Shown piece after piece: positions 5,208 through 39,512 of a stretch of 64,000 nucleotides of DNA. The notes beneath the pieces are model-generated. The model saw only the letters and a program-made list of their open reading frames with translations, ran no database searches and was not told where the DNA came from. Position numbers and translations under genes: made by a program. Origin of the DNA: Vineibacter terrae (GTDB taxonomy: Bacteria > Pseudomonadota > Alphaproteobacteria > Reyranellales > Reyranellaceae). The first letter of the stretch is position 1. Each line of letters starts with the position of its first letter. The stretch is taken from assembly GCF_008039615.1 (NCBI RefSeq), contig NZ_VDUZ01000005.1:62001-126000 (forward strand), given 5' to 3'.

Positions 5208-6731
5208 TCAGCCGGCCGTGGCGCGGCGCCGGAGCAGGCCCCGCATCCCGCCCCGGATCGCGTTCTGCGCCGCCGGGATCGACCATACGACCGAGAAGAT
5301 CGTGATCGCGGCCAGCACGCCGCTGATCGGCCGCGTGAAGAACGGCGCGATGCTGCCGTCCGACAGCACCAGGGCGCGGGTAAGGTTGCTCTCCAGCAGC
5401 TCGCCCAGCACCAGGCCCAGGATCATCGGCGCCATTGGGAACTTCAGCTCACGCAGCACGAAGCCGATCAGGCCGAAGAACAGCATCACATAGATGTCGA
5501 AGACGCGCGACGTGATGGCGAATGCGCCTACGGTGCACAGCACGAACACGATCGGCATCAGGCGCTCGCGCGGCACCAGCAGGATCCACAGCAGCGGCCG
5601 CACCAGGGTCAGGCCGAACAGCAGCTTGCTCATGTCGGCGATCACCAGCATGGCCACGATCTGGTAGAAGAACTCCGGCGTCTGGATCATCAGCATCGGG
5701 CCGGGGTTGATGTCGTGGATCAGCATCGCCGCCATCAGGGCGGCGGCCGGCGCCGAGCCGGGCACGGCGAGCGTCAGCACCGGGATGATGGCGCCGGGCA
5801 CGCAGGCGCTCTCGCCGGTTTCCGCCGACATCAGGCCCTCGATCGAGCCCTTGCCGTACTTCTCCTTCTCCTTGCTGGCGCGTCGCGCCGCCGCATAGGA
5901 CGACCACGCCGCGGTGTCCTCGCCCAGGCCGGGCAGGATGCCGATGAAGGTGCCGATCGCGCCGGAGCGCAGGATCGTCCTCCAGTACTGCAGGACGTCG
6001 CCGATGCGCGGGATCACCGAGTCGACGGTGTTGGCCACAGCCTTGGCGGCCGGCGCGCGCATCGCCTGCAGCACCTCGGCCACACCGAAGGCGCCGACCA
6101 GCGCCGGCAGCAGGCCGATGCCGCCAGCCAGGTCGGGATAGCCGAAGGCGAAGCGCTGGAAGTTGTAGTGCGGCTCCTGGCCGATGGTGGCGATCCACAG
6201 GCCCAGGAAGCCGGCGAGATAGCCCTTCAGCGCATCACCGCCCGACAGCGTGCCGGCGATCACGATGCCGAACACCGCGATCCAGAAGAACTCGAAGCTC
6301 TGGAATGTCAGCGCCAGCTCGGCCAGCACCGGCGTCAGGGTCGCCACGCACAGGGTGCCGAACAAGGTGCCCAGCCATGAGCCGCTGGTCGAGATGCCCA
6401 TGGCCCGGCCGGCCAGCCCCTGGCGCGCCAGCGGGAAGCCGTCCAGGGTCGAGCAGGCCGAGGCCGGCGTGCCCGGGATGTTGAGCAGGATGGCGCTGCG
6501 GCTGCCGCCATAGATGGCGCCGACATAGATGCACACCAGCACCAGGATGGCCTCGGTGTGCGGCATGGTGAAGGTGAGCGTCGTCATCAGCGCCACGCCC
6601 ATGGTGGCGGTGAGCCCGGGCAGGGCGCCGATCACGATTCCCAGGAAGGTGGCCCACAGGACGGTGACGATCGCACCCGGCGACATGAACGTGCCGAAGG
6701 CGGCGCCGAACTGGCTGAGGCTGTCGAGCAT
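5208..6731 (-). CDS. tctA: TTT transporter large membrane subunit TctA
   Basis: A 507-residue integral membrane protein of the tripartite tricarboxylate transporter family. Typical marks are GIVIGALPGLTATMGVALM near residue 33, YGGSRSAILLNIPGTPASACSTLDGFPLARQG (residues about 75-105) and IGTFIGILPGLGEDTAAW past mid-protein. About twelve hydrophobic segments are visible. TctA forms the secondary transport channel and works with TctB and a periplasmic TctC-type receptor, both encoded just upstream on this strand. The 11-base gap to tctB shows cotranscription. Family substrates are small carboxylates; the shared operator before tctC links uptake to the catabolic operons at 11318 and 35807. Confidence 0.93.
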   Translation of the reverse strand: MLDSLSQFGAAFGTFMSPGAIVTVLWATFLGIVIGALPGLTATMGVALMTTLTFTMPHTEAILVLVCIYVGAIYGGSRSAILLNIPGTPASACSTLDGFPLARQGLAGRAMGISTSGSWLGTLFGTLCVATLTPVLAELALTFQSFEFFWIAVFGIVIAGTLSGGDALKGYLAGFLGLWIATIGQEPHYNFQRFAFGYPDLAGGIGLLPALVGAFGVAEVLQAMRAPAAKAVANTVDSVIPRIGDVLQYWRTILRSGAIGTFIGILPGLGEDTAAWSSYAAARRASKEKEKYGKGSIEGLMSAETGESACVPGAIIPVLTLAVPGSAPAAALMAAMLIHDINPGPMLMIQTPEFFYQIVAMLVIADMSKLLFGLTLVRPLLWILLVPRERLMPIVFVLCTVGAFAITSRVFDIYVMLFFGLIGFVLRELKFPMAPMILGLVLGELLESNLTRALVLSDGSIAPFFTRPISGVLAAITIFSVVWSIPAAQNAIRGGMRGLLRRRATAG

Positions 6732-6742
6732 GGTGTCGGTCC

Positions 6743-7285
6743 TCAGGGCAGGCGCACGAGGAAGACGCGCTCGAACACCAGCACGACGATGCCGCCGGTC
6801 GCGAGGCCCGTCACCGCGGCGATGGCCATCCGCCGCGCACGCTCACGCGGCGCTAGCCCGGGCTGCCACTCGAACAGGGTGGCGAAGGCGAAGACGAAGA
6901 TCGCCGCCGCCAGCCAGAACGGCAGCCGGCCGACCAGGCCGACCGCGAAGGCCAGGCACAGGGTGGCGGCCAGGAACAGGCGGGTGTTGCTGTAGCCCTC
7001 GCGTGGCGCGGCCGCTTCGCGCGGCGCGTGCAGGGCGCCGCGGCCGATGGCGCGAAAGCCCAGCCACAGGCTGAGCACGATGATGATGACGCCATGCAGC
7101 GCCGGCACCAGCCCGGGCGCGGTGTAGATCTCGCCCTGCTCGCGGTAGGTCGGCATCTGCCAGCACAGCCAGAGGATGGCGGTCCCGACGCAGAAGAACA
7201 CCGCCGCCGTCCACAGGTCGTAGCGGGGCGGCAGCGGCTCCTCATGTGGCATCAAGGACGGCGGCGGCGACGGCGTTTGCGGCAT
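6743..7285 (-). CDS. tctB: TTT transporter small membrane subunit TctB
   Basis: A 180-residue protein with four hydrophobic segments, the expected size and topology for TctB. The first is near residues 25-45 (LWTAAVFFCVGTAILWLCW), the second covers LVPALHGVIIIVLSLWLG, and two more lie in the C-terminal half. Sequence conservation in this family is low, so the call rests on size, topology and position between tctC and tctA. Unusually the gap to tctC (about 180 bases) is filled by a palindromic element. Confidence 0.87.
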   Translation of the reverse strand: MPQTPSPPPSLMPHEEPLPPRYDLWTAAVFFCVGTAILWLCWQMPTYREQGEIYTAPGLVPALHGVIIIVLSLWLGFRAIGRGALHAPREAAAPREGYSNTRLFLAATLCLAFAVGLVGRLPFWLAAAIFVFAFATLFEWQPGLAPRERARRMAIAAVTGLATGGIVVLVFERVFLVRLP

Positions 7286-7464: not shown

Positions 7465-8478
7465 CTACTGCAGGCGCTGGATGCCCAGCGTGTCGGGCGA
7501 CACCTTGGCCTTGCCGGCGTCGAAATAGAGCCAGGCCGTGTAGCGGATCATCTTGAACGCCTCGGTCTGGGCCTCATCGCCGAACAGCGGCGCGAAGATG
7601 GCGCTGCGGGCATTGGCGTATTTCTGCACCGCCTCCGACTTGGCGATCTTGTTCCTCCACACCGCTTCCATGGTCTGGATCACGGCTGGCGGCGCGTCCT
7701 TGTGCACCCAGATCCCGAAATAGTTCATCGGTGCCGGCATCTTGGGCAGCCATTTGACGGTCGGCGGGATCTCGCCGTAGCCCTCCAGCATCACCGGCTT
7801 CTCGGCCATCACGACCAGCGGCACCAGCCGCTTGCCCTTGATGTGCTCGCTCATCTCGACCAGCAGCTGCGACACCGCCTTGGTCTCGCCGGCCACGGCC
7901 GAGACCACGGCCGGCGCGCCGCCGTTGTAGGTCACGTGCTTGTATTTGATGGGCGTGGCGGCGCGGATCGATTCCATCATGTTGTGGCCGGCCGACGACA
8001 GGCCGGCGGTAGCGACGGGGATGTTGTCGCCGTCGCGCTTGAGCTTCTCCAGGAAGTCGCCGAAATCCTTGAAGCCGGCGGCCGGGTTGGCGGCGATGGC
8101 GCTGACGTTGGCGACCGCGAAGAACGCCCTCCAGTCCTTCAGGTCGGTGTCGAGCAGCCCCAGGACGCGGTATGTGCCGACATCGACCGCTGCGCCCGCG
8201 GCCCAGGTGTATCCGTCCTTGGCTGCCTCCAGCGCGTTCTTGGTGCCGATCGAGCCCGACGCGCCGGGCTGGTTGACGACCACGAATTTCTGCTTCAGCT
8301 CGGCTTCCAGCTCGGCGGCCACGATGCGCGTCATCTGGTCGGTCGAGCCGCCGGCTGCCCACGGCACGATGATCGTGACCGGACGGTCGGGCTTCCACGG
8401 ATAGTCCTGCGCTGACGCGGCGCCGGCGATCAGGCCGAACGCCAGCCCGGCGATCGCCGCCAACACTGTGCGCTTCAT
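7465..8478 (-). CDS. tctC: TctC/Bug-type periplasmic solute receptor
   Basis: 337 residues with a clear signal peptide (MKRTVLAAIAGLAFGLIAGAASA, cut before QDYPW). The mature start PWKPDRPVTIIVPWAAGGSTDQMTR is the standard opening of the Bug/TctC receptor family, and the VVVNQPGASGSIGTKNALEAA stretch around residue 85 shapes the ligand pocket. These receptors deliver small organic acids and related compounds to TctAB. It is first in the tctC-tctB-tctA order. Its promoter region carries one of the three AAGTAAC-N6-GTTACTT palindromes 30 bases before the start, indicating control with the sugar-acid-like catabolic operons. Confidence 0.92.
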   Translation of the reverse strand: MKRTVLAAIAGLAFGLIAGAASAQDYPWKPDRPVTIIVPWAAGGSTDQMTRIVAAELEAELKQKFVVVNQPGASGSIGTKNALEAAKDGYTWAAGAAVDVGTYRVLGLLDTDLKDWRAFFAVANVSAIAANPAAGFKDFGDFLEKLKRDGDNIPVATAGLSSAGHNMMESIRAATPIKYKHVTYNGGAPAVVSAVAGETKAVSQLLVEMSEHIKGKRLVPLVVMAEKPVMLEGYGEIPPTVKWLPKMPAPMNYFGIWVHKDAPPAVIQTMEAVWRNKIAKSEAVQKYANARSAIFAPLFGDEAQTEAFKMIRYTAWLYFDAGKAKVSPDTLGIQRLQ

Positions 8479-8507: not shown

Positions 8508-8527
8508 AAGTAACGAACTGGTTACTT
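8508..8527. promoter_or_regulatory. Operator palindrome upstream of tctC
   Basis: AAGTAAC-GAACTG-GTTACTT, a perfect 7-bp inverted repeat with 6-base spacer, centred about 40 bases before the tctC start codon (minus strand). The same arms and spacing occur at 11281-11300, and nearly so at 35773-35790. The form fits a homodimeric repressor such as the TetR protein encoded at 16846. Confidence 0.78.
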
Positions 8528-8575
8528 ATTGGCTTAGACTGAGCGAGCTTGCCGGTCACCGTCAAGGGCAGACCG

Positions 8576-9349
8576 TCAACTACCCGTCAGCGTCCGGAAG
8601 ATCTCCAGCGACAGCTGCCCGAACGCGGCCGACGCCCTTACCTCGACCGTGCGCGGCCGCGGCAGGTCGACGGTGCGCACCGCGGCGATGCGGCCGGGGC
8701 GCGGCGTCATCACCACGATGCGGTCGGACAGGAACACGGCCTCCGAGATCGAATGGGTGACGAACAGCACGGTCTTGCGCGCCGCATTGCCGGTCTCGCC
8801 CCAGATACGCAGCAGCTCCAGGTTCATCTCGTCGCGCGTCATGGCGTCCAGCGCGCCGAACGGCTCGTCCATCAGCAGCAGGGGCGGGTCCAGCAGCAGG
8901 GCCCGGCACAGCGAGGCGCGCTGCTGCATGCCGCCCGACAGCTCGCGCGGCAGCTTGGCCGCGAACTCGCCCAGCCCCACCGTCTGCAGCAGGTGCTGTG
9001 CCCGGTCGCGGTAGCGGCCCGCGTCCTTGCCCGCCAGCTCGGCCGGCAGCAGGACATTGTCCAGGATCGAGCGCCATTTCAGCAGGATCGGCGCCTGGAA
9101 CACCATGCCGACATCGGCGATGGGGCGGGTCACGGGCCGCCCCGCGACGCGCACGCTGCCCCGCGTGGCCGGGCGCAGGCCGGCGATGATGCGCAGCAGT
9201 GTCGACTTGCCGCAGCCGCTGGGCCCGACCAGCGACACGAACTCGCCGCGCCCCACCTTCAGGTCGATGCCCGACAGCGCCTCGACCGGGCCGCTGTCGG
9301 CGGCGTAGGTCATGCCCAGCCCGTCGAGGTCGATCAGCTCGTTGCTCAC
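8576..9349 (-). CDS. ABC transporter ATPase, taurine/nitrate/sulfonate type
   Basis: 257 residues with complete ABC ATPase motifs: Walker A GPSGCGKST at 42-50, signature LSGGMQQR at 137-144, Walker B LLLMDEP at 157-163, then GALDAMTR and the switch histidine in VLFVTHSISEAVFLSDR. The DEPFGALDAMTRD and SISEAVFLSDRIVVM wording is typical of the SsuB/TauB/NrtD group. It is the last gene of the permease-receptor-ATPase operon on the minus strand, 37 bases after the receptor gene. Confidence 0.93.
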   Translation of the reverse strand: MSNELIDLDGLGMTYAADSGPVEALSGIDLKVGRGEFVSLVGPSGCGKSTLLRIIAGLRPATRGSVRVAGRPVTRPIADVGMVFQAPILLKWRSILDNVLLPAELAGKDAGRYRDRAQHLLQTVGLGEFAAKLPRELSGGMQQRASLCRALLLDPPLLLMDEPFGALDAMTRDEMNLELLRIWGETGNAARKTVLFVTHSISEAVFLSDRIVVMTPRPGRIAAVRTVDLPRPRTVEVRASAAFGQLSLEIFRTLTGS

Positions 9350-9386: not shown

Positions 9387-10391
9387 TCAGCGCGCGGCCG
9401 GCATGTCGACCTTGGTGAAGAACTCGGTGGTGAAGGTCGCCTTGCAGTCGACCTTCTTGGGCAGGCCCATATAGGTGTTCACCAGGTCCACCGAGTCGCA
9501 CATCTTCTTCTCGTCGATCCAGCCGATGCCGTTCTTGGCATAGCGCTCGGTCTTCATCAGCGACAGGCCGATCATCATGTTGGGCTCGATCACCGACAGG
9601 TCGACCTCCGGCACGCGCTTCTTGAGGATGGCGAGCGCCGCCTTGGGATCGGCCATCACGTCGCGCCAGCCCATGTACGACGCCTCGAGAAAGGCCTTCA
9701 GCGCCTTGCCGCGCTCCTTCATGGTCTTGTCGCTGGCCATGATCGACATGCTGTACATGTCGAAGCCGAAATCGGCCCATGACAGCATCACGACATTGCC
9801 GGCGCCCATCGCCTTCTCGTACAGCGGCAGGCCGGTGTTGTAGTCGCCCACCGTGTCGACGCGCTTCTCGGCCAGGGCCGCGATCTTGGCCGCCGGCTCG
9901 ACATTGACCCAGCTCACCTTGCTGGCATCGATGCCATGCAGCTTGGCGAAGGCCGGGAAGATCTGGCGCTGGCTGTCGCCCGGGGGCGCCGCCGCCGTCT
10001 TGCCTTCCAGGTCCTTGGGCTTGGTGATGGGCGCGCTCTTGGCGCTGAAGAAGTTCAGCGGCGTCTTGTCGAACACCATGCCGACGTCCTTGATCGTGGT
10101 GCCGCGCGCGATCGAGGCGATCACCACGGCGGCGTCGGCGAGGCCGGCGTCGGCGCGGCCCGAATCGACCTTGGCGATCGAGTCGCCGGAGCCCTTGGAG
10201 TTCTCCAGCACCACGTCCAGGCCCTTGGCCTTGTAGTAGCCCTTCTCCAGCGCCACCCAGTAGGCGGCATGGTCGCCGACCGCGAACCAGTTGAGCGCGA
10301 AGGTGAACTTCTCCAGCGGCTGCGCCGTTGCCGGCGCGACGACGGCCAGGCCTGCGGCCGCGGCGCTGAGAGCGCGGACCATCCATCTCAT
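9387..10391 (-). CDS. NMT1/THI5-like ABC substrate-binding protein
   Basis: 334 residues with a signal peptide (about 1-23, ending ATAQ) and the mature opening KFTFALNWFAVGDHAAYWVALEKGYYKAKGLDV, the hallmark of the SsuA/TauA/THI5 receptor family. A SGRADAGLADAAVVIASIARG segment near residue 75 is the usual ligand-site loop. Family ligands include sulfonates, nitrate, pyrimidines and aromatic acids, so the substrate cannot be named. The gene sits between its permease and ATPase, and the operon shares a divergent, palindrome-bearing promoter with the catabolic operon at 11318. Confidence 0.92.
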   Translation of the reverse strand: MRWMVRALSAAAAGLAVVAPATAQPLEKFTFALNWFAVGDHAAYWVALEKGYYKAKGLDVVLENSKGSGDSIAKVDSGRADAGLADAAVVIASIARGTTIKDVGMVFDKTPLNFFSAKSAPITKPKDLEGKTAAAPPGDSQRQIFPAFAKLHGIDASKVSWVNVEPAAKIAALAEKRVDTVGDYNTGLPLYEKAMGAGNVVMLSWADFGFDMYSMSIMASDKTMKERGKALKAFLEASYMGWRDVMADPKAALAILKKRVPEVDLSVIEPNMMIGLSLMKTERYAKNGIGWIDEKKMCDSVDLVNTYMGLPKKVDCKATFTTEFFTKVDMPAAR

Positions 10392-10416: not shown

Positions 10417-11187
10417 TCATTGAGTCGCCTCGGCCCAGGGCGCGGCCCAGCGCGCGATGGCGACGACGGCGCCGTACAGCGCCAGGCCGACGATCGACAC
10501 CCAGACCAGCGCGCCGAACGCCAGCGGCGTGTTCATGCTGCTCTGCGTGGTGATGATGACGTAGCCCAGGCCCTTCTGCGAGGCCACGAACTCGCCCACG
10601 ATGGCGCCGACCACGGCCGACGTGGCGGTGATCTTGAGCGCGCTCAGGATGTAGGGCAGCGCATTGGGCAGCCGGATCTTGGCGAAGATCTTCCATTTCG
10701 GCGCGGAGAAGACGCGGCCCAGGTCGAGCATCTCGGGGTCGACCTGCGACAGGCCCACGGCCGTGTTGATCACGACCGGGAAGAAGCCGATCAGCGCCCC
10801 GATCAGCATGTTGGGCACGATGCCGTAGCCCAGCCACAGCAGGAACAGCGGCGCCACCGCGACCTTGGGCAGCGTGTTGACGAGCACCAGGAACGGCACC
10901 AGGGCGCTGGCCAGCCGCGGCGACCAGGCGATGGCGACGCCCAGCGCCACGCCCACGCCGCCGGCCAGCACGAAGGCGCCGATGATCTCCAGGGTCGTCA
11001 CCCATAGATGCGGCCACCACTGCGTCTCGGGCTCGATGAACGCGCGCAGCACCGCCATCGGGCTGGGCAGCAGGTATTCACGGATGTTCAGCAGGCTGAC
11101 CGCGAGCTGCCAGACGACGATCAGCCCGACGAACAGCGCCATCGCCGGCCAATTGTCGCCAAACCATCGCAGGATCTTGCTACCCAC
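10417..11187 (-). CDS. ABC transporter permease, SsuC/TauC type
   Basis: 256 residues with six hydrophobic segments and the inner-membrane permease EAA loop (residues about 150-185, GLSQVDPEMLDLGRVFSAPK onward into IRLPNALPYILSALKI). It opens with a short cytoplasmic stretch and a first membrane helix, NWPAMALFVGLIVVWQLAVSLL. It is the first gene of the minus-strand operon, and its start faces the Gfo/Idh gene across a 130-base intergenic region holding the shared operator. Confidence 0.92.
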   Translation of the reverse strand: MGSKILRWFGDNWPAMALFVGLIVVWQLAVSLLNIREYLLPSPMAVLRAFIEPETQWWPHLWVTTLEIIGAFVLAGGVGVALGVAIAWSPRLASALVPFLVLVNTLPKVAVAPLFLLWLGYGIVPNMLIGALIGFFPVVINTAVGLSQVDPEMLDLGRVFSAPKWKIFAKIRLPNALPYILSALKITATSAVVGAIVGEFVASQKGLGYVIITTQSSMNTPLAFGALVWVSIVGLALYGAVVAIARWAAPWAEATQ

Positions 11188-11280: not shown

Positions 11281-11300
11281 AAGTAACGGTTTGGTTACTT
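11281..11300. promoter_or_regulatory. Operator palindrome in the divergent ABC / catabolic promoter
   Basis: AAGTAAC-GGTTTG-GTTACTT, identical in both 7-base arms and in spacing to the site before tctC. It ends 17 bases before ATG 11318 and lies 94 bases upstream of the permease start, so one bound dimer could control both directions. Its position over the plus-strand leader suggests repression. Confidence 0.8.
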
Positions 11301-11317: not shown

Positions 11318-12364
11318 ATGGCGACCGGCGTCAAGAGAGACACGTTGCGGGTGCTGCTGGCGGGCCACGGCGCGTTCGGCGCCGTGCATGCGCAGGCCTG
11401 GGCAACGCTGGGCTTCGCCGAGCGCCTGGTGATCGCCGATCCCGATCCGCATGCCCGCGCCCAGGCGCAGGCGGCGCTGCCGCAGGCCCGTGTCGTGGCC
11501 GACTGGCGCATGGCGCTCCCCGATGTCGACGTGGTCGATCTCGTCACGCCCAGCAATACGCATGCCGCGGTGGCCCTGGCCGCACTCGATGCAGGCTGCG
11601 ACCTGCTGATCGAGAAGCCGATGACGATGAACCGGGCCGAGGCCGCGGCGATGGCGGCGCGGGCGCGGCAGGCGGAGCGCATCGTGCAGGTGGGCTACGT
11701 GCTGCGCACCCATCCCGCGGCGCGCCGGCTGCGCGACATCGTGCGCGCCGGCGACGTCGGCGCGCCGGTCTGGATCGATGCTGCGTTCCTGTCCCTGAAA
11801 CGGCCGCGGCGCGATGCCGGCGTCGTGCTCAACGACGCGGTGCACGTGATCGACCTCGTGCTGTGGACGGTCGGCCGGACGCCCGACGCGGTGTCGGCGG
11901 TGCTGGTCGAGCATCTGGGCCGCGGCGTCGAGGACATCGCTTCGATCACGCTGCATTGGCAGGACGGACCGACGGCGCGGGTCGATGCGTCGTGCATCGT
12001 GGCCGGCGAGCATCTCGACCCCTACGTGGCTGGCGGCATCTCGCGCAAGCACCTGTCGGTGACCGGCGACGCCGGCCAGGCCGTGGCCGACTTCATGACC
12101 GGCAGCGTGCGCTGGCGATCGTGCCGCCAGCAGCGCATCGCCGGCGGCGGCCATGAGCCGGTGTCAGGGCCCGAGCAGACCACGACGTTCGCGGCGCCGT
12201 CGCCGCGCGACGCCGTTGCTGCCGAGCTCGAAAGCTTCGTCGAGGCCGTGATCGCGCGCCGGTCGCCCGAAGCCGATGCCGGCAGCGGCCTCGCCATGGC
12301 GGCGGTCTGCGATGCCGTCTTCGCCGCCGCCCGCGAGCGTCGCACCGTCGAGGTCCGGGCATGA
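11318..12364 (+). CDS. Gfo/Idh/MocA family NAD(P)-dependent oxidoreductase
   Basis: 348 residues. The N-terminal Rossmann fold starts VLLAGHGAFGAVHAQAW with the GxGxxG-type loop at 16-21, and the family signature EKP (E99-K100-P101) carries the catalytic-region lysine. The C-terminal half is the usual alpha/beta dimerisation and substrate domain. Members oxidise sugars, sugar acids or inositols at a ring carbon. An upstream TTG at 11291 is in frame, but it lies inside the operator, so ATG 11318 is preferred. It is the first gene of a tightly coupled operon: the next ATG overlaps its stop. Substrate unknown. Confidence 0.88.
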   Translation: MATGVKRDTLRVLLAGHGAFGAVHAQAWATLGFAERLVIADPDPHARAQAQAALPQARVVADWRMALPDVDVVDLVTPSNTHAAVALAALDAGCDLLIEKPMTMNRAEAAAMAARARQAERIVQVGYVLRTHPAARRLRDIVRAGDVGAPVWIDAAFLSLKRPRRDAGVVLNDAVHVIDLVLWTVGRTPDAVSAVLVEHLGRGVEDIASITLHWQDGPTARVDASCIVAGEHLDPYVAGGISRKHLSVTGDAGQAVADFMTGSVRWRSCRQQRIAGGGHEPVSGPEQTTTFAAPSPRDAVAAELESFVEAVIARRSPEADAGSGLAMAAVCDAVFAAARERRTVEVRA

Positions 12365-13221
12365 AGACACCAGAGCAAGTGGGATATCCGATGCGCCTGT
12401 CGTTGTGCAACGAAGTGATCCGCGACCTGCCGTTCGAGCGGCAATGTGCGCTGGCGGCGGCGCTGGGCTATGCCGGCCTCGAGGTCGCGCCCTTCACCCT
12501 GGGCGAGACGGCGTGGACGGCGCCGGCCGGCGAGCGTGCCGCCTGGCGTCGGGCGCTGGCCGATTCGGGCGTGGCGGTCAGCGGCCTGCACTGGCTGCTG
12601 GTGAGTCCGGCCGGCCTGTCGATCACGTCGGGCGACAAGGCGACCTGGGATCGCACCGTCGACATCCTGCGGCGGCTGATCGACCTGTGCGCCGAGCTGG
12701 GCGGCGACTATCTCGTGCACGGCTCGCCGGCGCAGCGCCGCATCGGCGACCAGGCCGACCCGGCCGCCGCCGCGGCGCGCGGCGAGGCGGCATGGGCCGC
12801 GATCGCCGACGATGCGCGCCGCGCCGGCGTGGTCTATTGCATCGAGCCGCTGTCGCGGCCGGAGGCGGATTTCGTGAACACCCTGGGCGAGGCGGCGGCG
12901 ATCGTGCAGCGCATCGGCAGCCCGGCCCTGCGCACCATGATCGACACCCTGGCCGCCGGCAGCATGGAGCCGGAGCCGGTCGCCGATGCGCTGCGCCGCT
13001 GGCTGCCGACCGGCATGGTGGCGCATATCCAGCTCAACGACCGCAACCGCCGCGGCCCCGGCCAGGGCGACGACAGGTTCGCGCCCGTGCTGCGGGCGCT
13101 GAAGGATGGCGGCTACGGCGGCTGGGTGGCGATGGAGCCTTTCGACTATCACCCCGACGGCCCGACCTGCGCCGCCCGCGCGATCGGCTACGTCCAAGGC
13201 ATCCTGGAGACGCTGGCATGA
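12361..13221 (+). CDS. Sugar phosphate isomerase/epimerase family TIM-barrel protein
   Basis: 286 residues of the xylose-isomerase-like TIM barrel (AP endonuclease 2 superfamily). Metal and substrate strand motifs are in order: GYAGLEVAPF, SGLHWLL, YLVHGSP, VYCIEPLSR with the glutamate ligand, MIDTLAAG where many relatives have a D-x-x-H type motif, MVAHIQLNDRNRRGPGQGD with the histidine ligand, and WVAMEPFDY with the last glutamate. Such proteins act as isomerases, epimerases or 3-keto-sugar lyases. ATG 12361 overlaps the preceding stop; ATG 12391 would remove ten residues. The overlap at 13218 couples it to the enolase-type gene. Confidence 0.87.
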   Translation: MKTPEQVGYPMRLSLCNEVIRDLPFERQCALAAALGYAGLEVAPFTLGETAWTAPAGERAAWRRALADSGVAVSGLHWLLVSPAGLSITSGDKATWDRTVDILRRLIDLCAELGGDYLVHGSPAQRRIGDQADPAAAAARGEAAWAAIADDARRAGVVYCIEPLSRPEADFVNTLGEAAAIVQRIGSPALRTMIDTLAAGSMEPEPVADALRRWLPTGMVAHIQLNDRNRRGPGQGDDRFAPVLRALKDGGYGGWVAMEPFDYHPDGPTCAARAIGYVQGILETLA

Positions 13222-14681
13222 CTGACGCCCCCAAGCTGAAGCTCGAGTCCGTCGAGCGCTACGAGCGCGACGTCACGCTGCGCCTGCCGTTCCGCTTCGG
13301 CGTGATCACGGTGACGCAATCCACGCAGGCGGTGGTCCGCGCCACTATCGCGCTGCCCGACGGGCGCACCGCCACCGGCATCGCGGCCGAGAGCCTGGGC
13401 GCCAAGTGGTTCGACAAGAACCTCGCCTACAGCGATGCGCAGAACCTGGACCAGCTGCGCCAGGCGCTGGACATCGCCATCGATCTCTACCGCGGCCGTG
13501 GCTGGAGCACCGCCTTCGGCCTCTACGCCGGCACCTATCGCGAGCAGCTGGCGCGCGGCGCGGCGCTCGACCTCGTGCCCCTGGTGGCGTCCTATGGGCC
13601 GGCCCTGCTCGACCGTGCCGTCCTCGACGCGCTGGGCCGCGCCAACGGCTGGTCCTTCGCCGACATGATCCGGCGCAACATCCCCGGCCTGGCGATCACC
13701 GATCTCACGCCCGACCTCGCCGGGCTAGATCTGCCCGCCTTCCTCGCCGGCCTTGCGCCCGGCAGCGGCATCGACGTGCGCCACACTGTCGGGCTGGTCG
13801 ATCCCATCGTGGCTGCCGACCAGAAGCCGGGCGAGCGGGTGGACGACGGCCTGCCGGAGACCCTGGAGGAGGTGGTGCGCCACTATCGCGGCCGCTACTA
13901 CAAGCTCAAGGTCGGCGGCGATGTGCGTGCCGATCTCGACCGCCTGTCGCGCATCGCCGCCGTGCTCGACCGCGATGCCGGCGACTACCGCGCCACGCTC
14001 GACGGCAACGAGCAGTACGACGATGTCGAGGGCATCGGCGAGCTGTGGCGGCACATGGAGGAGACGCCGGCGCTGCAGCGCCTGGTGTCCTCGATCATGT
14101 TCATCGAGCAGCCGATCAAGCGCGCCGTGGCGCTGGCCCGGCCGGTCGAGGCGCTGGCGCGTCGCAAGAAGCTCATCATCGACGAGTCGGACGGCGAGCT
14201 GGGCACGTTCCCGGCGGCGCTGGCGCTGGGCTATTCCGGCGTGTCGAGCAAGAACTGCAAGGGGTTCTACAAATCGATCCTCAATGCGGCGCGCGTGGCG
14301 CGGCTCAACGCCCGGGCCGGCACGGCGCAGTATTTCATGTCGGCCGAGGACCTGACGACCCTGGCTGGCGTCAGCGTGCAGCAGGACCTGGCGCTGGTAT
14401 CGCTGCTGGGGCTCACCCATGTCGAGCGCAACGGCCATCACTTCATCGACGGCATGTCGTTCGCGCCCGCGGCCGAGCAGGCGTCGTTCGCGGCCGCGCA
14501 TCCCGACCTCTATGACCGCGCCGGCGGCCCGGCCCGCCTGCGCATCGAGCAGGGCCGCCTGCGCCTGGGCTCGCTCGCCTGTCCCGGCTTCGCCGTCGCC
14601 GGTGAGACCGACATCGCGGCGCTGCGCCCCATGCCCGCCGCGCCCAAGGCCCGCATCGTGCCTGCGAATGCGGGAGGCTAG
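13218..14681 (+). CDS. Enolase-superfamily (mandelate racemase/muconate lactonizing-like) enzyme
   Basis: 487 residues. The start ATGA overlaps the isomerase stop; the frame is open further upstream but only as an artefact of GC-rich coding. Enolase-superfamily residues can be placed: K229-L-K231 in YYKLKVGGD, metal ligands D262 (LDGNEQY), E297 (FIEQP) and D322 (IIDESDGE), and K345/K348 in SSKNCKG on the opposite barrel side. The N-terminal capping domain is about 170 residues. Length exceeds the usual 350-400 residues because of a longer cap and C-terminal tail. Members abstract an alpha-proton from a carboxylate to dehydrate, racemise or cyclise it, so the substrate is probably a sugar acid or similar carboxylate. 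Confidence 0.83.
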   Translation: MTDAPKLKLESVERYERDVTLRLPFRFGVITVTQSTQAVVRATIALPDGRTATGIAAESLGAKWFDKNLAYSDAQNLDQLRQALDIAIDLYRGRGWSTAFGLYAGTYREQLARGAALDLVPLVASYGPALLDRAVLDALGRANGWSFADMIRRNIPGLAITDLTPDLAGLDLPAFLAGLAPGSGIDVRHTVGLVDPIVAADQKPGERVDDGLPETLEEVVRHYRGRYYKLKVGGDVRADLDRLSRIAAVLDRDAGDYRATLDGNEQYDDVEGIGELWRHMEETPALQRLVSSIMFIEQPIKRAVALARPVEALARRKKLIIDESDGELGTFPAALALGYSGVSSKNCKGFYKSILNAARVARLNARAGTAQYFMSAEDLTTLAGVSVQQDLALVSLLGLTHVERNGHHFIDGMSFAPAAEQASFAAAHPDLYDRAGGPARLRIEQGRLRLGSLACPGFAVAGETDIAALRPMPAAPKARIVPANAGG

Positions 14682-14818: not shown

Positions 14819-15856
14819 ATGACAACAGATCCCACCCTGCCCACGCGCTTCGCCGATGTCGCGGCGCTGGAAGATTTCATGACCGAGCCGACGCCGGCGC
14901 TGGTGGCCGACCTGGCGCGGGCGCCGGGTGACATCCTGGTGCTGGGCGTGGGCGGCAAGATGGGCCCGACCCTGGCGCGGCTGGCCAGGCGCGCCGACCC
15001 GCGGCGGCGCGTCATCGGCGTGGCGCGCTTCAGCAAGCCCGGCCTGCGCGAGGCGCTGCAGGCGCACGGCATCGAGACCATCGCCTGCGACCTGCTCGAC
15101 CGCAGCGCGATCGGGCGCCTGCCGCAGGCGCCCAACGTCGTGTTCATGGCCGGCCACAAGTTCGGCGCCACCGGCAACGAGCCGCTCACCTGGGCGATGA
15201 ACGTGCTGGTGCCGGCCCATGTCGCCGAGACCTTCGCCGCGGCGCGTATCGTCGCGTTCTCGACCGGCTGCGTCTATCCCTTCGTCGATGTCGACGGTGG
15301 CGGCGCGACGGAGGATGTGCCGCCGGTGCCGCCCTCGGGCGACTATGCCTGGTCCTGCGTCGGGCGCGAGCGCATGTTCCAGCAGGCGTCGCGGGTCCAC
15401 GGCACGGCCGGCCGACTGGTCCGGCTGAACTACGCCATCGACATGCGCTACGGCGTGCTGCACGACGTGGCGCGCAAGGTGCGCGATGGCGAGGTGATCG
15501 ATCTCGCCATGGGCCATGTCAACGTGATCTGGCAAGGCGACGCCAACAGCATCGCGCTGCGCTGCCTGGCGCACGCCACGGCGCCGACCACGCCGATCAA
15601 CGTCACCGGTCCGCAGACCGTCAGCGTGCGCTGGCTGGCCGGCGAGTTCGCGCGCCTGCTGGGCAGGAAGGCGCAATTTTCCGGCACCGAGGCACCCGCC
15701 GGCTGGATCAACAACGCCGCCGCCATGACGGCCGCGTTCGGCCCGCCGCGTGTGCCGCTGGCGGCCATGATCGACTGGACCGCCGACTGGTTGACACGCG
15801 CCATGCCTTCGCTCGACAAGCCCACCCACTATGAGGTGCGCGATGGGCGGTATTGA
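14819..15856 (+). CDS. NAD-dependent epimerase/dehydratase (extended SDR-like)
   Basis: 345 residues with a Rossmann start ILVLGVGGKMGPTLARLARR (the glycine-rich loop of extended SDRs) and the later VAFSTGCVYPF strand with the catalytic-region serine or threonine. Where family members have YxxxK, this protein reads YAWSC, so the lysine of the classical triad is missing or displaced. It is in the same operon as the Gfo, isomerase and enolase-like genes, but separated from the latter by the inverted repeat 14704-14782. It probably acts on a sugar or sugar acid; atypical chemistry or a purely binding role should be considered. Confidence 0.8.
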   Translation: MTTDPTLPTRFADVAALEDFMTEPTPALVADLARAPGDILVLGVGGKMGPTLARLARRADPRRRVIGVARFSKPGLREALQAHGIETIACDLLDRSAIGRLPQAPNVVFMAGHKFGATGNEPLTWAMNVLVPAHVAETFAAARIVAFSTGCVYPFVDVDGGGATEDVPPVPPSGDYAWSCVGRERMFQQASRVHGTAGRLVRLNYAIDMRYGVLHDVARKVRDGEVIDLAMGHVNVIWQGDANSIALRCLAHATAPTTPINVTGPQTVSVRWLAGEFARLLGRKAQFSGTEAPAGWINNAAAMTAAFGPPRVPLAAMIDWTADWLTRAMPSLDKPTHYEVRDGRY

Positions 15857-15860
15857 GCTT

Positions 15861-15988
15861 CCTCCCCAACGAAGTTGGGGAGGTGCCCCGAAGGGGCGGA
15901 GGGGAGCCAACGTGGTTTTCGTAATGACCACCACGTCGGTTCCCCATCCGGCCCTTCGGGCCACCTTCCCCGCAAGCGGGGAAGGGAG
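15861..15988. repeat. Palindromic element, family A copy 3
   Basis: CTCCCCAAC/GTTGGGGAG hairpin, GGTGCCCCGAAGGGGC block, central arms around TTTCGTAATGA, and a terminal CTTCCCCGC/GCGGGGAAG hairpin. It lies between the SDR-like gene and the GNAT gene; its last purine-rich bases (GAAGGGAGAGAAGG) form the ribosome site of the GNAT gene. Confidence 0.9.
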
Positions 15989-15994
15989 AGAAGG

Positions 15995-16849
15995 ATGACT
16001 CCCCTCATCGAACGCGACCTGCGGCCACAGGACGCCGAGGCGGCATGGACGCTGTCGATCGAAGCCGGCTGGAACCAGAACGTCGCCGACTGGCGCTTCA
16101 TGCTGACCCACGGCAAGGCATTGGGCGTCGTCGACGACACCGGGACCTGGGTCGCCAGCGCGCTGGCGCTGCCGCTGGGGGCCAGGCTGTCGTGGCTCAG
16201 CATGGTGCTGGTGACCCAGGCCCAGCGTCGCCGCGGCCTGGGCACGGCGCTGCTGAAGCGCTGCCTGGCGCATGTCGAGGCGCGGGGGGCGGCGGCCGGC
16301 CTGGATGCTACCGAGCTGGGCCGTCCCGTCTACCTGCCGCTGGGCTTCCGCGATCTGTACCGCATTCCGCGCTGGCACATCGACCGCGCCGGCGATCCGG
16401 TGCCGCCGCCGGCCGACGTGCTGCTGCGACCCATGCTCGAGGCCGACCTCGTGCGCGTCTCCACCTTCGACGTCGCGCGCAGCGCCATGGAGCGCGGCTA
16501 CATCCTGGCCCATCTGCGGACGCGCCGCCCCGATCTGGCATGGATCGCCGAGCGCGATGGTCGCGTCGCGGGCTATGCCGTGGGCCGCGAAGGCCGGGCT
16601 GCGACCTCGATCGGCCCGATCGTGGCTGATGAGGAGGGTATCGGCCTGGCGCTCGCCAGCCGGGCGCTGGCGGCGGCGCCGGGGCCGTTCCTGATGGACG
16701 TGCCCGATACCCATGACGAGGTGGCGCGCTGGCTGCGCGCCGCCGGCGCCACGTCGCCCCGCGCCTTCGTGCGCATGCTGCGCGGCGCGCTGCCCGGGCT
16801 GGAGCGCGACCGTCATATCATCGCGCTGGCCGGGGCGGAGCTGGCATGA
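15995..16849 (+). CDS. GNAT family N-acetyltransferase
   Basis: 284 residues, longer than a single GNAT domain; two GNAT-like halves are likely. The first has the acetyl-CoA loop QRRRGLGTALLKRCL (residues about 72-86) after the strand LSMVLV. The second half (from about residue 135, LLRPMLEADL) resembles a degenerate copy, with GYAVGREG and IVADEEGIGLALASRAL. ATG 15995 follows AGAAGG supplied by the repeat element. The stop overlaps the TetR start. Its acetyl acceptor is unknown. Confidence 0.85.
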   Translation: MTPLIERDLRPQDAEAAWTLSIEAGWNQNVADWRFMLTHGKALGVVDDTGTWVASALALPLGARLSWLSMVLVTQAQRRRGLGTALLKRCLAHVEARGAAAGLDATELGRPVYLPLGFRDLYRIPRWHIDRAGDPVPPPADVLLRPMLEADLVRVSTFDVARSAMERGYILAHLRTRRPDLAWIAERDGRVAGYAVGREGRAATSIGPIVADEEGIGLALASRALAAAPGPFLMDVPDTHDEVARWLRAAGATSPRAFVRMLRGALPGLERDRHIIALAGAELA

Positions 16850-17532
16850 CCGCCGTCAAGCGTGGCGAGCGCTCCAACCGCAAGCGAAAGGTCGCGGTCG
16901 ATGACATCGGCGCCGCGCGCACGCGCGATCCCGAGCGCACGCGCGCGCGCATCCTGGAGGCGGCCACCGACGAGTTCTCGCAGCGCGGCCTGGGCGGCGC
17001 CCGCGTCGACGCCATCGCGCGCCGGGCCGGCGCCAACAAGCGCATGCTCTACCACTACTTCGGCAACAAGGAGGGCCTGTTCCTGGCGGTGATGGAGCAC
17101 ACCTATGCCCATATCCGCACCCAGGAGGAGGCGCTGCACCTGGACGACCTGGCGCCGGTGCAGGCGATGCGGCGCCTGATGCGCTTCACCTTCCGCTATT
17201 TCCTGGGCAATCCGCATTTCATCGTGCTGCTCAACAGCGAGAACCTGCACCGCGCCCGGCATATCCGCCGCTCGCCGCGCGTGAAGGCGATCAACAGCCC
17301 GCTGATCGAGGCCCTGGGCCGCGTGCTGCGCCGCGGCCGCGCCGCCGGCCTGTTCCGCAGCGGCGTCGATCCGCTGCAGCTCTACATGTCGATCGCCGGC
17401 GTCTGCTACTTCTACTTCTCCAACATCCATACGCTGTCGACCATCTTCGACCGCGACCTGATGTCGTCGTCGGCGCTGGCCGCGCGCGAGCGCCACGTCA
17501 TCGACGTGATCATGGGCTACCTGCGGGCGTGA
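16846..17532 (+). CDS. TetR family transcriptional regulator
   Basis: 228 residues. A basic N-terminal tail is followed by the TetR helix-turn-helix at about residues 27-75 (TRARILEAATDEFSQRGLGG, then RRAGANKRMLYHYFGNKEGLF). The rest is the helical ligand-binding domain with MRFTFRYFLGNPHFIVLLNSE. Its ATG overlaps the GNAT stop, so it is the last gene of the catabolic operon it probably controls. The AAGTAAC-N6-GTTACTT palindromes before this operon, before tctC and before the operon at 35807 are of the size and symmetry expected for a TetR dimer. That assignment is inference from proximity. Confidence 0.92.
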   Translation: MTAVKRGERSNRKRKVAVDDIGAARTRDPERTRARILEAATDEFSQRGLGGARVDAIARRAGANKRMLYHYFGNKEGLFLAVMEHTYAHIRTQEEALHLDDLAPVQAMRRLMRFTFRYFLGNPHFIVLLNSENLHRARHIRRSPRVKAINSPLIEALGRVLRRGRAAGLFRSGVDPLQLYMSIAGVCYFYFSNIHTLSTIFDRDLMSSSALAARERHVIDVIMGYLRA

Positions 17533-17564: not shown

Positions 17565-17650
17565 GTCATCCCGAGCGCAGCGAGGGATCTCCCGCGGCAA
17601 GGCGCACGGTGCGCCATTCGCGGGGGATCCCTCGCTGCGCTCGGGATGAC
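17565..17650. repeat. Inverted repeat, family C copy 1
   Basis: Perfect 25-bp arms: GTCATCCCGAGCGCAGCGAG(GGATC) at 17565-17589 and its complement at 17626-17650, around a 36-base GC-rich centre that itself pairs (GGCGCACGGTGCGCC). Related copies: 35619-35704 (diverged) and 36905-36931 (short). It follows the TetR stop by 33 bases and could also end that transcript. Confidence 0.88.
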
Positions 17651-25267: not shown

Positions 25268-26746
25268 GTGCCGAGCGGCGACAGGGCCAAGACCGGAGCG
25301 AACGAGCAGGCCATGACCGGGGGCCTTGCGGCGCTGCACGGCATGCGGCTGGACCGCGGCGATGCCATGCCGATCTACCGCCAGATCGAGGCCCGCATCC
25401 GGGCCGCGATCCTGGATGACCGGCTGGCGCCGGGCACGCGCCTGCCGTCCTCGCGCAGCCTCGCCAGCCAGCTCGCCGTGGCGCGCGCCACCGTGGAGCT
25501 GGCCTACAACGTGCTGGCCGGCGACGGCTTGATCGAGGGGCATGCTGCGGCCGGCACCATCGTGGCGCCGCGTCTGCAGGCCGATCACCTGCGGGCCGCG
25601 CGCCGGCGCGAGGCGGCGCAGCGGCCGGTGATCCAGCCCAGCCTGATCTGGTCGGCCACGACCCGGCCGCTGCAGATGGGCGTGCCGGCCTTCGATGCCT
25701 TTCCGCGCAAGCTGTGGACGCGGCTGGCGGCGCGCACGGCGCGTGGCCTGTCGACGGCGCAGATGACCTACCAGGACACGTCGGGCTACGAGCCGCTGCG
25801 CCGCGAGCTGGTGCGTTATCTCGCGATCGCGCGCGGCGTGGTCTGCAGCATCGATCAGGTGTTCATCACCGCAGGCTTCCAGGGTGCGCTGGGCCTCATT
25901 GCCCGCATCCTGCTGAAACCAGATGACGAGGTCTGGGTCGAGGATCCCGGTTATTTCTTCGGGCGCGATGCGCTGGCGCTGGCCGGTGGCCGGCCAGTGC
26001 CGGTGCCGGTCGACGGCGACGGCCTGGATATCGCCGCCGGCATGGCCCGCGCACCCGAGGCGCGCTTCGTTGTCGTGACGCCCACCAACCAGTTCCCGCT
26101 GGGCGCCAGCCTGACGACCGCGCGCCGCGCCGACCTGCTGGCCTGGGCTGGCGCCAACGGCACCTGGATCATCGAGGACGACTACGACAGCGAGTTCCGC
26201 TATCGCGGACCCAAGATGCCGGCGCTCAAGAGCATCGATGCGCCGGGCCGCGTGCTCTATGTCGGTACCTTCAGCAAGGTGCTGTTTCCAGCCTTGCGGC
26301 TGGGCTACCTCGTGGTGCCCGAGCCGCTGATCGAGCGTTTCGCCACAAGCGCAGCGCTGCTGCAGCCGCAGCCGTCGCTTGCCGATCAGATCACCGCCAC
26401 CGCGTTCATGGCCGAAGGCCACTTCGCGCGCCATGTCGCGCGCATGCGCGGGCTCTACGCCGAGCGTCGCGAGGCGCTGCTGCAGGCGCTCGCAGCATTG
26501 CCCAAGCCCCACTGGGCGGTCGAGGCCGCCGCCGGCGGCATGCATGTGATCGTGCGCTTGCCGGCGGGCGCAGACGATGCCGCCGCCGTCATGCGCGCGC
26601 ACGCTGTCGGCCTCTCGCCCGAGCCGCTGTCGCGCTTCGCGATGGAGGCCGAGACAGGCCCTGGGCTGCTGCTGAGCTTCACCAACCTGCCGGCCGAGAC
26701 GGCTGCGCGCACGATGCGCAAGCTGCACCGTGCCCTGCAGGCATAG
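25268..26746 (+). CDS. MocR-family (GntR-HTH plus aminotransferase) regulator
   Basis: 492 residues. A winged HTH of the GntR type occupies about residues 35-100 (PIYRQIEARIRAAILDDRLA, then LPSSRSLASQLAVARATVELAY), followed by a fold-type I aminotransferase domain with PLP-binding lysine K337 in TFSKVLFPALRLGY and PTNQFPLG. MocR/PdxR-like proteins use PLP as an effector to control vitamin B6, GABA or amino acid genes. GTG 25268 has GAGG at about 9 bases; ATG 25313 is an alternative. It is divergent from the AhpD-like gene. Confidence 0.9.
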   Translation: MPSGDRAKTGANEQAMTGGLAALHGMRLDRGDAMPIYRQIEARIRAAILDDRLAPGTRLPSSRSLASQLAVARATVELAYNVLAGDGLIEGHAAAGTIVAPRLQADHLRAARRREAAQRPVIQPSLIWSATTRPLQMGVPAFDAFPRKLWTRLAARTARGLSTAQMTYQDTSGYEPLRRELVRYLAIARGVVCSIDQVFITAGFQGALGLIARILLKPDDEVWVEDPGYFFGRDALALAGGRPVPVPVDGDGLDIAAGMARAPEARFVVVTPTNQFPLGASLTTARRADLLAWAGANGTWIIEDDYDSEFRYRGPKMPALKSIDAPGRVLYVGTFSKVLFPALRLGYLVVPEPLIERFATSAALLQPQPSLADQITATAFMAEGHFARHVARMRGLYAERREALLQALAALPKPHWAVEAAAGGMHVIVRLPAGADDAAAVMRAHAVGLSPEPLSRFAMEAETGPGLLLSFTNLPAETAARTMRKLHRALQA

Positions 26747-35618: not shown

Positions 35619-35704
35619 TGTCATTCCGAGCGCAGCGAGGAATCTTTGGCGACAGGGGCAATGATGCGTCGTTCAGAAAGATCCCTGGCCACGCGCGGGA
35701 TGAC
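35619..35704. repeat. Inverted repeat, family C copy 2 (diverged)
   Basis: Starts TGTCATTCCGAGCGCAGCG and ends with a GGGATGACGGG arm, about the same length as the copy at 17565, but the arms have several mismatches. It marks the upstream side of the operon at 35807. Confidence 0.7.
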
Positions 35705-35772
35705 GGGTGTGCATCAGGGCAACAGTACCCATTGGCACCCGTTGACAGTGCGGCGCCGGATGCGCCACGGTT

Positions 35773-35790
35773 GTAACCGGATGGTTACTT
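35773..35790. promoter_or_regulatory. Operator palindrome upstream of the DapA-like operon
   Basis: GTAAC-CGGATG-GTTAC followed by TT, preceded by TT. The same core and 6-base spacing occur at 8508-8527 and 11281-11300; only the outer left bases differ (TT instead of AA). It ends 17 bases before ATG 35807, the same position relative to the gene as at 11281, pointing to one common regulator. Confidence 0.75.
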
Positions 35791-35806: not shown

Positions 35807-36880
35807 ATGGCGGCCAACGGCGGCCTGCATTGGTCCGATATCCCGGCCCCGGTCCTGGCGGTGCTGCGGCAGGGCGCCGTGCTGCCGGCCCATCCGCTGG
35901 CGCTGGACGAGAATCGCGCCTTCGACCGCGACTCGCAACGCGCCCTGTCGCGCTACTACATCGATGCCGGCTCGGGTGGCCTGGCCGTGGGTGTGCACGC
36001 GACGCAATTCCAGATCCGCGATGTCGGCCTCTACCGGCCGGTGCTCGAGCTGGCGCAGCAGACCGCCGACGCCTGGACCGACCGGCCGCTGGTGATGATC
36101 GCCGGTGTCATCGGCAAGACCGCGCAGGCCGTCGAGGAGGCGCGGCTGGCGCGCGCCCTGGGCTATCACGCCGTGCTGCTGGGGCTGGGCGCATTGAAGG
36201 GCGCCGGCGAGGACGAGCTGGTGGCGCACTGCGCCGCGGTGGCGCGCGAGATGCCGCTGGTCGGCTTCTACCTGCAGACGGCGGTCGGCGGCATCCCGCT
36301 GTCGCGCGCCTTCTGGGCGCGCTTCGCGGCCATCGAGAACGTCATCGCCATCAAGGTGGCGCCGTTCAACCGCTACAAGACCCTCGACGTCGCCGTCGGC
36401 GTCGCCATGGCCGGCGCCGAGGACCGCGTCACGCTGTACACCGGCAACGACGACCACATCGTCGCCGACCTGCTGATGCCGTGGCGGGTGCGCGCCGGCA
36501 ACCGCGAGGTGACGCTGCGTTTCCGCGGCGGGTTGCTGGGGCACTGGAGCGTGTGGACCAAGGCCGCGGTCGGGCTGCTGGGGCAGGCGCACGCCGCCGT
36601 CGACAGCGGCTCGGTACCGCTGGACGTGCTGGCGCTGGACTCCAAGGTGACCGACTGCAACGCCGTGGTGTTCGATGTCGCCAACGAATTCCGCGGCTGC
36701 ATCCCCGGCTGCCATGAGATTCTCCGCCGCCAGGGCCTGCTGCGCACGGTGCATTGCCTGGATCCGCACGAGGTTCTGAGCCCGGGGCAGTCGGACGAGA
36801 TCGACCGCCTCTACGCCACCTACCCCGAGCTCACCGACGATGCCTTCGTCGCCGCCAACCTCGCGCGCTGGCGCGGGTAG
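35807..36880 (+). CDS. DHDPS/NAL family (DapA-like) aldolase or dehydratase
   Basis: 357 residues, a TIM barrel of the dihydrodipicolinate synthase family. The Schiff-base lysine is K183 in VIAIKVAPFNRY, following LVGFYLQTAVGG; the latter takes the place of the usual tyrosine strand. Standard members are about 300 residues, so there is extra sequence, mainly C-terminal. In catabolic operons such enzymes cleave or dehydrate 2-keto-3-deoxy sugar acids. ATG 35807 has GGAGAGG upstream; an in-frame TTG at 35789 lies in the operator and is rejected. It is first of four genes with a shared operator. Confidence 0.85.
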   Translation: MAANGGLHWSDIPAPVLAVLRQGAVLPAHPLALDENRAFDRDSQRALSRYYIDAGSGGLAVGVHATQFQIRDVGLYRPVLELAQQTADAWTDRPLVMIAGVIGKTAQAVEEARLARALGYHAVLLGLGALKGAGEDELVAHCAAVAREMPLVGFYLQTAVGGIPLSRAFWARFAAIENVIAIKVAPFNRYKTLDVAVGVAMAGAEDRVTLYTGNDDHIVADLLMPWRVRAGNREVTLRFRGGLLGHWSVWTKAAVGLLGQAHAAVDSGSVPLDVLALDSKVTDCNAVVFDVANEFRGCIPGCHEILRRQGLLRTVHCLDPHEVLSPGQSDEIDRLYATYPELTDDAFVAANLARWRG

Positions 36881-36904: not shown

Positions 36905-36931
36905 AGTCATCCCTCGCTACGCTCGGGATGA
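36905..36931. repeat. Short family C hairpin
   Basis: GTCATCCCTCGCTACGCTCG(GGATGAC) is a compact version of the family C arms closing on each other (GTCATCC/GGATGAC ends). It lies in the 80-base gap between the DapA-like and Gfo/Idh genes. Confidence 0.7.
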
Positions 36932-36960: not shown

Positions 36961-38112
36961 ATGCCAACACGTCGCCTCGGCATCATCATGAACGGCGTGA
37001 CCGGGCGCATGGGGACCAACCAGCACCTGGTGCGTTCCATCGTCGCCATCCGTCAGCAGGGCGGGGTGGCGCTGGCCAACGGCGATCGCGTCATGCCCGA
37101 TCCCATCCTGGTGGGCCGCGGCGCCGACAAGGTCGAGCGCCTGGCCAAGGCCTATGGCATCGAGCGCTGGACCACCGACCTCGACACGGCGCTGCACAAC
37201 CGCAACGACGAGGTCTTCTTCGACGCCGCCACTACCCAGGCGCGCGCCGGCCTGCTGGCGCAGGCGATCGACGCCGGCAAGCACGTCTATTGCGAGAAGC
37301 CGGTGGCCGACACGCTGCATCATGCGCTGGCCGTGGCCAAGAAGGCCAAGGCCGCCGGCATCAAGCACGGCGTCGTGCAGGACAAGCTGTTCCTGCCGGG
37401 CCTGCTGAAGCTGAAGATGTTGCGCGACTCGGGCTTCTTCGGCCGTATCCTCTCGGTGCGCGGCGAGTTCGGCTACTGGGTGTTCGAGGGCGACTGGCAG
37501 CCGGCGCAGCGGCCGTCATGGAACTACAAGAAGGCCGAGGGCGGCGGCATCATCCTCGACATGGTCTGCCATTGGCGCTACGTGATGGACAACCTGTTCG
37601 GCGCCGTGAAGTCGGTGAGCTGCCTGGGCGCCACCCATATCCCCGAGCGCTGGGACGAGGCCGATCGCAGGTACGCGGCCGACACCGACGATGCCTGCTA
37701 CGCTACCTTCCAGCTCGAGGGCGGCGTGATCTGCCACATCAACAGCTCCTGGTGCACGCGCGTGCGCCGCGACGATCTGGTGACGTTCCATGTCGACGGC
37801 ACGCTGGGCTCGGCCGTCGCCGGTCTGCAGAGCTGCCGCACCCAGGCGCGCGTGAGCACGCCGCGCCCGGTATGGAACCCCGACGTCAAGCAGAGCATCG
37901 ACTTCTTCGCCGGCTGGCAGGAGGTGCCTGACAACGTCGCCTACGACAACGGCTTCAAGGCCGAGTGGGAGATGTTCATCCGCCATGTCTGCGAGGACGC
38001 GCCGTTCAAATGGACCCTGTTCGAAGGCGCCAAGGGTGTGCAGCTGGCCGAGCTGGCGATGCGGAGCTGGAAGGAGCGCCGCTGGATCGACGTCCCGCCG
38101 CTGGAGGTTTGA
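36961..38112 (+). CDS. Gfo/Idh/MocA family oxidoreductase (second)
   Basis: 383 residues. The Rossmann start LGIIMNGVTGRMGTNQHLVRS has a GxxGxxG-type loop, and the family signature EKP lies at 112-114 (HVYCEKPVADT). The second domain contains GGGIILDMVCHWRYVMDN, with the conserved Asp and His near 200. It is not closely similar to the Gfo protein at 11318, so the two probably oxidise different intermediates. It follows the DapA-like gene by 80 bases and is separated from the DUF993 gene by a palindromic element. ATG 36961 follows AAGGGG. Confidence 0.88.
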   Translation: MPTRRLGIIMNGVTGRMGTNQHLVRSIVAIRQQGGVALANGDRVMPDPILVGRGADKVERLAKAYGIERWTTDLDTALHNRNDEVFFDAATTQARAGLLAQAIDAGKHVYCEKPVADTLHHALAVAKKAKAAGIKHGVVQDKLFLPGLLKLKMLRDSGFFGRILSVRGEFGYWVFEGDWQPAQRPSWNYKKAEGGGIILDMVCHWRYVMDNLFGAVKSVSCLGATHIPERWDEADRRYAADTDDACYATFQLEGGVICHINSSWCTRVRRDDLVTFHVDGTLGSAVAGLQSCRTQARVSTPRPVWNPDVKQSIDFFAGWQEVPDNVAYDNGFKAEWEMFIRHVCEDAPFKWTLFEGAKGVQLAELAMRSWKERRWIDVPPLEV

Positions 38113-38119
38113 TAGTTAT

Positions 38120-38247
38120 CCTCCCCAGCTTCGCTGGGGAGGTGCCCCGAAGGGGCGGAGGGGAGCCGACGTGGTCTTGGCAACTGAGACCACGTCGGCT
38201 CCCCCTCCGGCCTTCGGCCACCTCCCCCAGCGAAGCTGGGGGAGGGA
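38120..38247. repeat. Palindromic element, family A copy 4
   Basis: CTCCCCAGC/GCTGGGGAG hairpin, GGTGCCCCGAAGGGGC block, GGAGCCGACGTGGTC and complement around TTGGCAACTGA, then GGCCTTCGGCC and a terminal CTCCCCCAGC/GCTGGGGGAG hairpin. Almost base-for-base copy 1 except the centre. Lies between Gfo/Idh and DUF993 genes. Confidence 0.92.
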
Positions 38248-38270
38248 AGACATCGAACGAGGAAACAACC

Positions 38271-39485: not shown

Positions 39486-39512
39486 AGGGTGAGGGATCAA
39501 GGAGAAGATGCC

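Follow-up and report, generated by a model that had tools for sequence, protein, structure and literature searches.

TetR-family repressors are characterised by a helix-turn-helix, a palindromic operator at the promoter and a gene situated inside or beside the operon controlled. Local TetR repressors of catabolic operons follow this pattern, with a palindromic promoter operator and the regulator gene inside or beside the putative target operon, and the TetR protein analysed here is arranged likewise. RutR, BetI and AcuR are among the named NCBIfam models that score on this protein, the resemblance residing in the TetR_N helix-turn-helix; unlike the subfamilies bearing those names, it has TetR_C_29, a putative TAACC-N4-GGTTA operator and other predicted target genes.

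A related gene set is represented by the SMc04132-SMc04139 region of Sinorhizobium meliloti, which was likened to the present locus via published gene listings and two other Sinorhizobium species. The Sinorhizobium region has a sugar-type ABC transporter, whereas the source genome has Tct and a taurine-type ABC transporter instead. PDB entry 4dnh is presumably SMc04132, which is thus matched to DUF993. SMc04133 is listed as an oxidoreductase in one report (PMC12542648). Another (PMC11387232) lists SMc04134 among transcription factors, assigns it solely to a predicted network, and in its passages on this gene gives neither motif nor substrate. No relevant description of DUF993, of a TetR with this motif or of the gene combination was found in the open-licence literature, and an earlier description elsewhere is possible; the regulon proposed below is of a well-known kind and apparently new, not previously described.

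Predicted operators and neighbouring genes

The window, i.e. the whole 64-kb stretch of DNA analysed, contains three exact GTAAC-N6-GTTAC sites, at 8510-8525, 11283-11298 and 35773-35788, and the other three matches of the same search carry two mismatches each. Predicted operator 1 (AAGTAACGAACTGGTTACTT, 8508-8527) lies 29 bp before tctC (ATG 8478, minus strand), operator 2 (AAGTAACGGTTTGGTTACTT, 11281-11300) has the ABC operon on its left and gfo1 17 bp to its right (ATG 11318), and operator 3 (TTGTAACCGGATGGTTACTT, 35771-35790) lies 16 bp before dapA (ATG 35807). The preliminary description had reported palindromes of one 6-base spacing at the first two positions and at 35772-35790; the spacing and the first two coordinates were reproduced, and the third site is real but starts one base earlier.

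The genome-wide scan proposed there found the palindrome to be rare rather than scattered over many positions: GTAAC-N6-GTTAC has five exact matches in the 8.76 Mb, and the reversed control has none. With up to one mismatch allowed, the longer motif AGTAACC-N4-GGTTACT is found four times in the genome, at the three window sites and at one on contig C76, so that the same operator-like site stands at each member promoter and is rare elsewhere. Genome scans also returned a two-mismatch match on contig C31 and a core match on contig C39. The fifth exact match, C11:127874, was set aside: the motif's inner C/G is missing from its spacer, TTATAT, making it a probable chance match, and the gene set is absent beside it.

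Leftward of operator 1, on the minus strand, lie tctA (5208-6731; Pfam TctA, 453.6 bits), tctB (6743-7285; Pfam TctB) and tctC, encoding the solute-binding protein (7465-8478; Pfam TctC). The predicted ABC operon, on the same strand, comprises a taurine/nitrate-type ATPase (8576-9349), an NMT1/SsuA-type solute-binding protein (9387-10391) and a permease (10417-11187). The plus strand carries the predicted gfo1 operon, with gfo1 (Gfo/Idh/MocA oxidoreductase, 11318-12364), a first xylose-isomerase-like TIM barrel (12361-13221), a 487-aa enolase-like protein (13218-14681), an NAD-dependent epimerase/SDR (14819-15856), a GNAT acetyltransferase (15875-16849) and, as its last gene, tetR, the proposed repressor of 228 aa (16846-17532). 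The enolase-like label comes from the preliminary description and from inspection by eye; a Pfam search gave this protein no match of its own, and it shares 50% identity with a gene from the Sinorhizobium version of the cluster.

The second catabolic set, also on the plus strand, consists of a DapA-like aldolase/lyase (35807-36880; Pfam DHDPS, 29.3 bits), gfo2 (Gfo/Idh/MocA oxidoreductase, 36961-38112), a DUF993 protein (open frame 37965-39431, homology from about 38271) and, downstream of it, a second xylose-isomerase-like TIM barrel (39489-40346; AP_endonuc_2, 130.9 bits) that has 67% identity to its counterpart in the Sinorhizobium and Mesorhizobium clusters. The nearest solved relatives, both very close, are 4dnh for DUF993, an uncharacterised protein, and 3oqb for gfo2, an oxidoreductase with no named substrate; a substrate sought via these solved structures was accordingly not named.

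The TetR protein and its recognition helix

The tetR product matches TetR_N (PF00440) at 60.4 bits against a cut-off of 24 (residues 36-82), which places it in the family, and the ligand-binding C-terminal domain TetR_C_29 (PF17938) at 162.6 bits against 26.2; a palindromic operator-like site (operator 2) stands at the promoter of its own predicted operon. It falls in no subfamily named in NCBIfam, every NCBIfam equivalog model remaining far under its cut-off, with ScbR_bind_reg the best (55.3 bits against 150) and RutR at 48.7 against 368.

Residues N64, K65, R66, Y69 and K75 of the recognition helix are invariant in 92 TetR homologues. At the sites of this set the TAACC core is invariant apart from rare exceptions, a conservation that is partly by construction because sites were selected with at most one core mismatch. 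The outer operator base, mostly G or T, was not used for site selection; residue 70 (His or Tyr) is the best of 147 positions at predicting it (R2 0.49, F 63.5), with exceptions such as L135, and the link is suggestive only, since no more than about three changes at that residue are required on the tree.

Conservation of the sites within the genus

G072, G073 and G074, the three further genomes of the genus examined, each have the TetR orthologue (83-90% identity in one comparison, 84-89% in another) and the operator, and sites are kept at the orthologous promoters, giving four genomes in all; the palindrome that the preliminary description suggested seeking near orthologous operons is therefore there. 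The operator 1 16-mer before tctC is identical in the three, the operator 2 16-mer is identical in G073, and operator 3 before dapA is conserved in G072, G073 and G074.

A single locus is found in G072 and G074, running from tctCBA through an operator, gfo1 to tetR and a further operator to dapA-gfo2-DUF993. G073 resembles the window, with dapA-gfo2-DUF993 about 20 kb off, its site kept, and the ABC cassette between two sites. Because G072 and G074 hold one locus with the same operators, the 24-kb split in the window is read as a rearrangement of a linked set. A REP-like repeat, TCATCCCGAGCGCAGCGAGG, occurs in four copies on both strands (17566-17585, 17630-17649, 35621-35640 and 36912-36931; 0.04 expected by chance), and as the copies are found directly downstream of tetR and on either side of dapA, it could have had a role in the rearrangement.

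In G073 the sequence immediately upstream of the tctC operator can be aligned with the gfo1 start of G074 (0 of 500 shuffles as good), and the corresponding window region, 8527-8590, resembles the window's own gfo1 start (0/500). The window region aligns more weakly with the gfo1 start of G072 (8/500), and its alignment with that of G074 is not significant (210/500). The gfo1-like DNA at 8527-8590 is apparently what remains of an ancestral divergent gfo1-tctC promoter after insertion of the ABC cassette, and the alignment suggests that the cassette arrived with a duplicated operator.

Co-occurrence and enrichment in the family and beyond

Across 75 family genomes, a TetR orthologue (taken as E below about 1e-63) and TAACC-N4-GGTTACTT occurred together in 11, the TetR only in 2, the site only in 1 and neither in 61 (Fisher p = 1.9e-10); the operator is both conserved at orthologous promoters and associated with the TetR. 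Within the same family, genus g4 has TetRs of 50-53% identity adjoining gfo2-DUF993, with the variant site TTAACC-N4-GGTTACTT at the tetR-gfo2 junction.

Scanning the collection with the TetR alignment returned 80 loci, mostly from Alpha- and Betaproteobacteria and a few from MAGs that carry a Gammaproteobacteria label; most have the same gene kit in varied order. With the three genus members left out, the remaining 77 loci contain 53 motif occurrences at no more than two mismatches. Wrong spacings yield 0-2, and 200 permuted palindromes average 1.42 and never exceed 9; close relatives among these loci are not fully independent of each other. Upstream of kit genes, 91 of 558 regions match within three mismatches, and the reversed control gives 1. 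Since the loci were chosen for the TetR and not for the motif, this enrichment is an independent test.

Position of the sites at promoters

In the oriented sites the distance from the end of a TTGAC -35 element to the operator downstream of it is mostly 18-26 bp and peaks at 20-23, a peak that a control word does not show, so that the operator would cover the -10/+1 region in most cases. At dapA, TTGACA lies 23 bp upstream of operator 3; for dapA, tctC and most relatives' sites the operator follows the -35 element by 18-32 bp, the tctC operator lying about ten bases further downstream than usual. This placement is as expected of a promoter-blocking repressor.

The 94 bp between operator 2 and the permease start make control of the ABC operon less sure, though probable. 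A fourth site is flanked by a carbohydrate ABC transporter and an HpcH/HpaI aldolase gene (L057 18912, which is G000 C76:34911, and L071 9134), and here the operator precedes TTGACA instead of covering the -10. It is kept in G073, and examination of the hpcH orthologue of G072 found no site; the C76 site probably controls hpcH, and given this split between the two genomes hpcH counts only halfway as a firm member of the regulon.

Proposed regulon and alternative explanations

The three palindromes are very probably binding sites of one TetR-family repressor. The preferred reading, to which we assign a probability of about 0.88, is that they are putative operators of the TetR encoded at 16846-17532, which would repress, be released by an inducer and co-control uptake and catabolism. 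The proposal of the preliminary description that this protein controls all three promoters gains support from conserved sites, co-occurrence, enrichment and the recognition helix; its joining of two uptake systems and two catabolic sets about 24 kb apart is likewise supported, with ABC uptake as a probable member.

From these comparisons we infer binding, repression, induction and operon structure as follows. Without inducer, a TetR dimer would sit on AAGTAACC-N4-GGTTACTT at the gfo1, tctC and dapA promoters, covering the -10/+1 or immediately beyond it, and probably also at those of the ABC operon and, elsewhere in the genome, of the sugar-ABC/HpcH aldolase pair, where it would block RNA polymerase. 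A pathway compound, at a guess a sugar acid or polyhydroxylated carboxylate, would bind the TetR_C_29 domain and free the repressor from DNA, turning on uptake (TctCBA, ABC) and catabolism (Gfo1-TIM-enolase-like-SDR-GNAT and DapA-Gfo2-DUF993-TIM) together. As the last gene of the gfo1 operon, tetR is proposed to be autoregulated.

A shared operator could be real and yet be bound by another regulator, such as a GntR, a LysR or a paralogous TetR encoded elsewhere, and a GntR/aminotransferase-type (MocR-like) regulator is indeed encoded at 25268-26746, between the two halves of the gene set. This is quite unlikely, however, given that tetR is the sole regulator among the recognised genes of the single locus in G072 and G074, that the motif tracks this TetR subfamily through Alpha- and Betaproteobacteria, and that the source genome has one TetR of the subfamily at E ≤ 1e-40. 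Nor does the TetR itself have to repress everywhere: at some promoters it might activate, or both activate and repress, as the hpcH operator upstream of TTGACA would allow. The odds of this are slim, because operators at dapA, tctC and most relatives' promoters, over or just past the -10, would block initiation.

Three short sites alone would be thin evidence, and matches arising by chance or from a dispersed repeat of no regulatory meaning might be envisaged; this explanation is scarcely credible in view of the conservation at orthologous promoters and the zero or near-zero controls, and a chance origin of the palindromes was rejected on their rarity in the genome together with the permuted and reversed controls. 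Repression by the TetR at 16846-17532 is retained as the preferred reading, and it would bring at least a dozen genes of catabolism and transport into one regulated pathway, among them two whose solved relatives (4dnh and 3oqb) have no known function. The repressor and operator together offer a route to the inducer, and hence to the substrate, via a reporter screen.

Rhizobial clusters and distant relatives

On balance it seems plausible that a TetR-subfamily regulon with operator TAACC-N4-GGTTA extends across Alpha- and Betaproteobacteria and governs an uncharacterised catabolic pathway with interchangeable Tct/ABC uptake, its kit comprising Gfo/Idh dehydrogenases, DUF993, a DapA-like lyase, TIM-barrel isomerases and the enolase-like protein. 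The same regulon could then be annotated in rhizobia, Burkholderiales and relatives.

Two Sinorhizobium species have the order tetR-gfo2-DUF993-enolase-like-TIM, in which gfo2 is preceded by an operator and the divergent ABC gene by a weaker copy. Operators in Sinorhizobium and Mesorhizobium lie before gfo2 and before the sugar-ABC solute-binding gene (L139 10672 and 9799; L114 10674 and 3275), and on account of this the rhizobia probably hold the same regulon. Many betaproteobacterial loci have no close motif match, and the sites there, where seen, are degenerate (ATTCACC type). One further locus, on contig C675 of G042 (L072 2402-2417), has the dapA-site 16-mer and, directly after it, a second, imperfect copy (GTAACCATGTGGCTAC), downstream of a 726-aa frame outside the regulon gene set.
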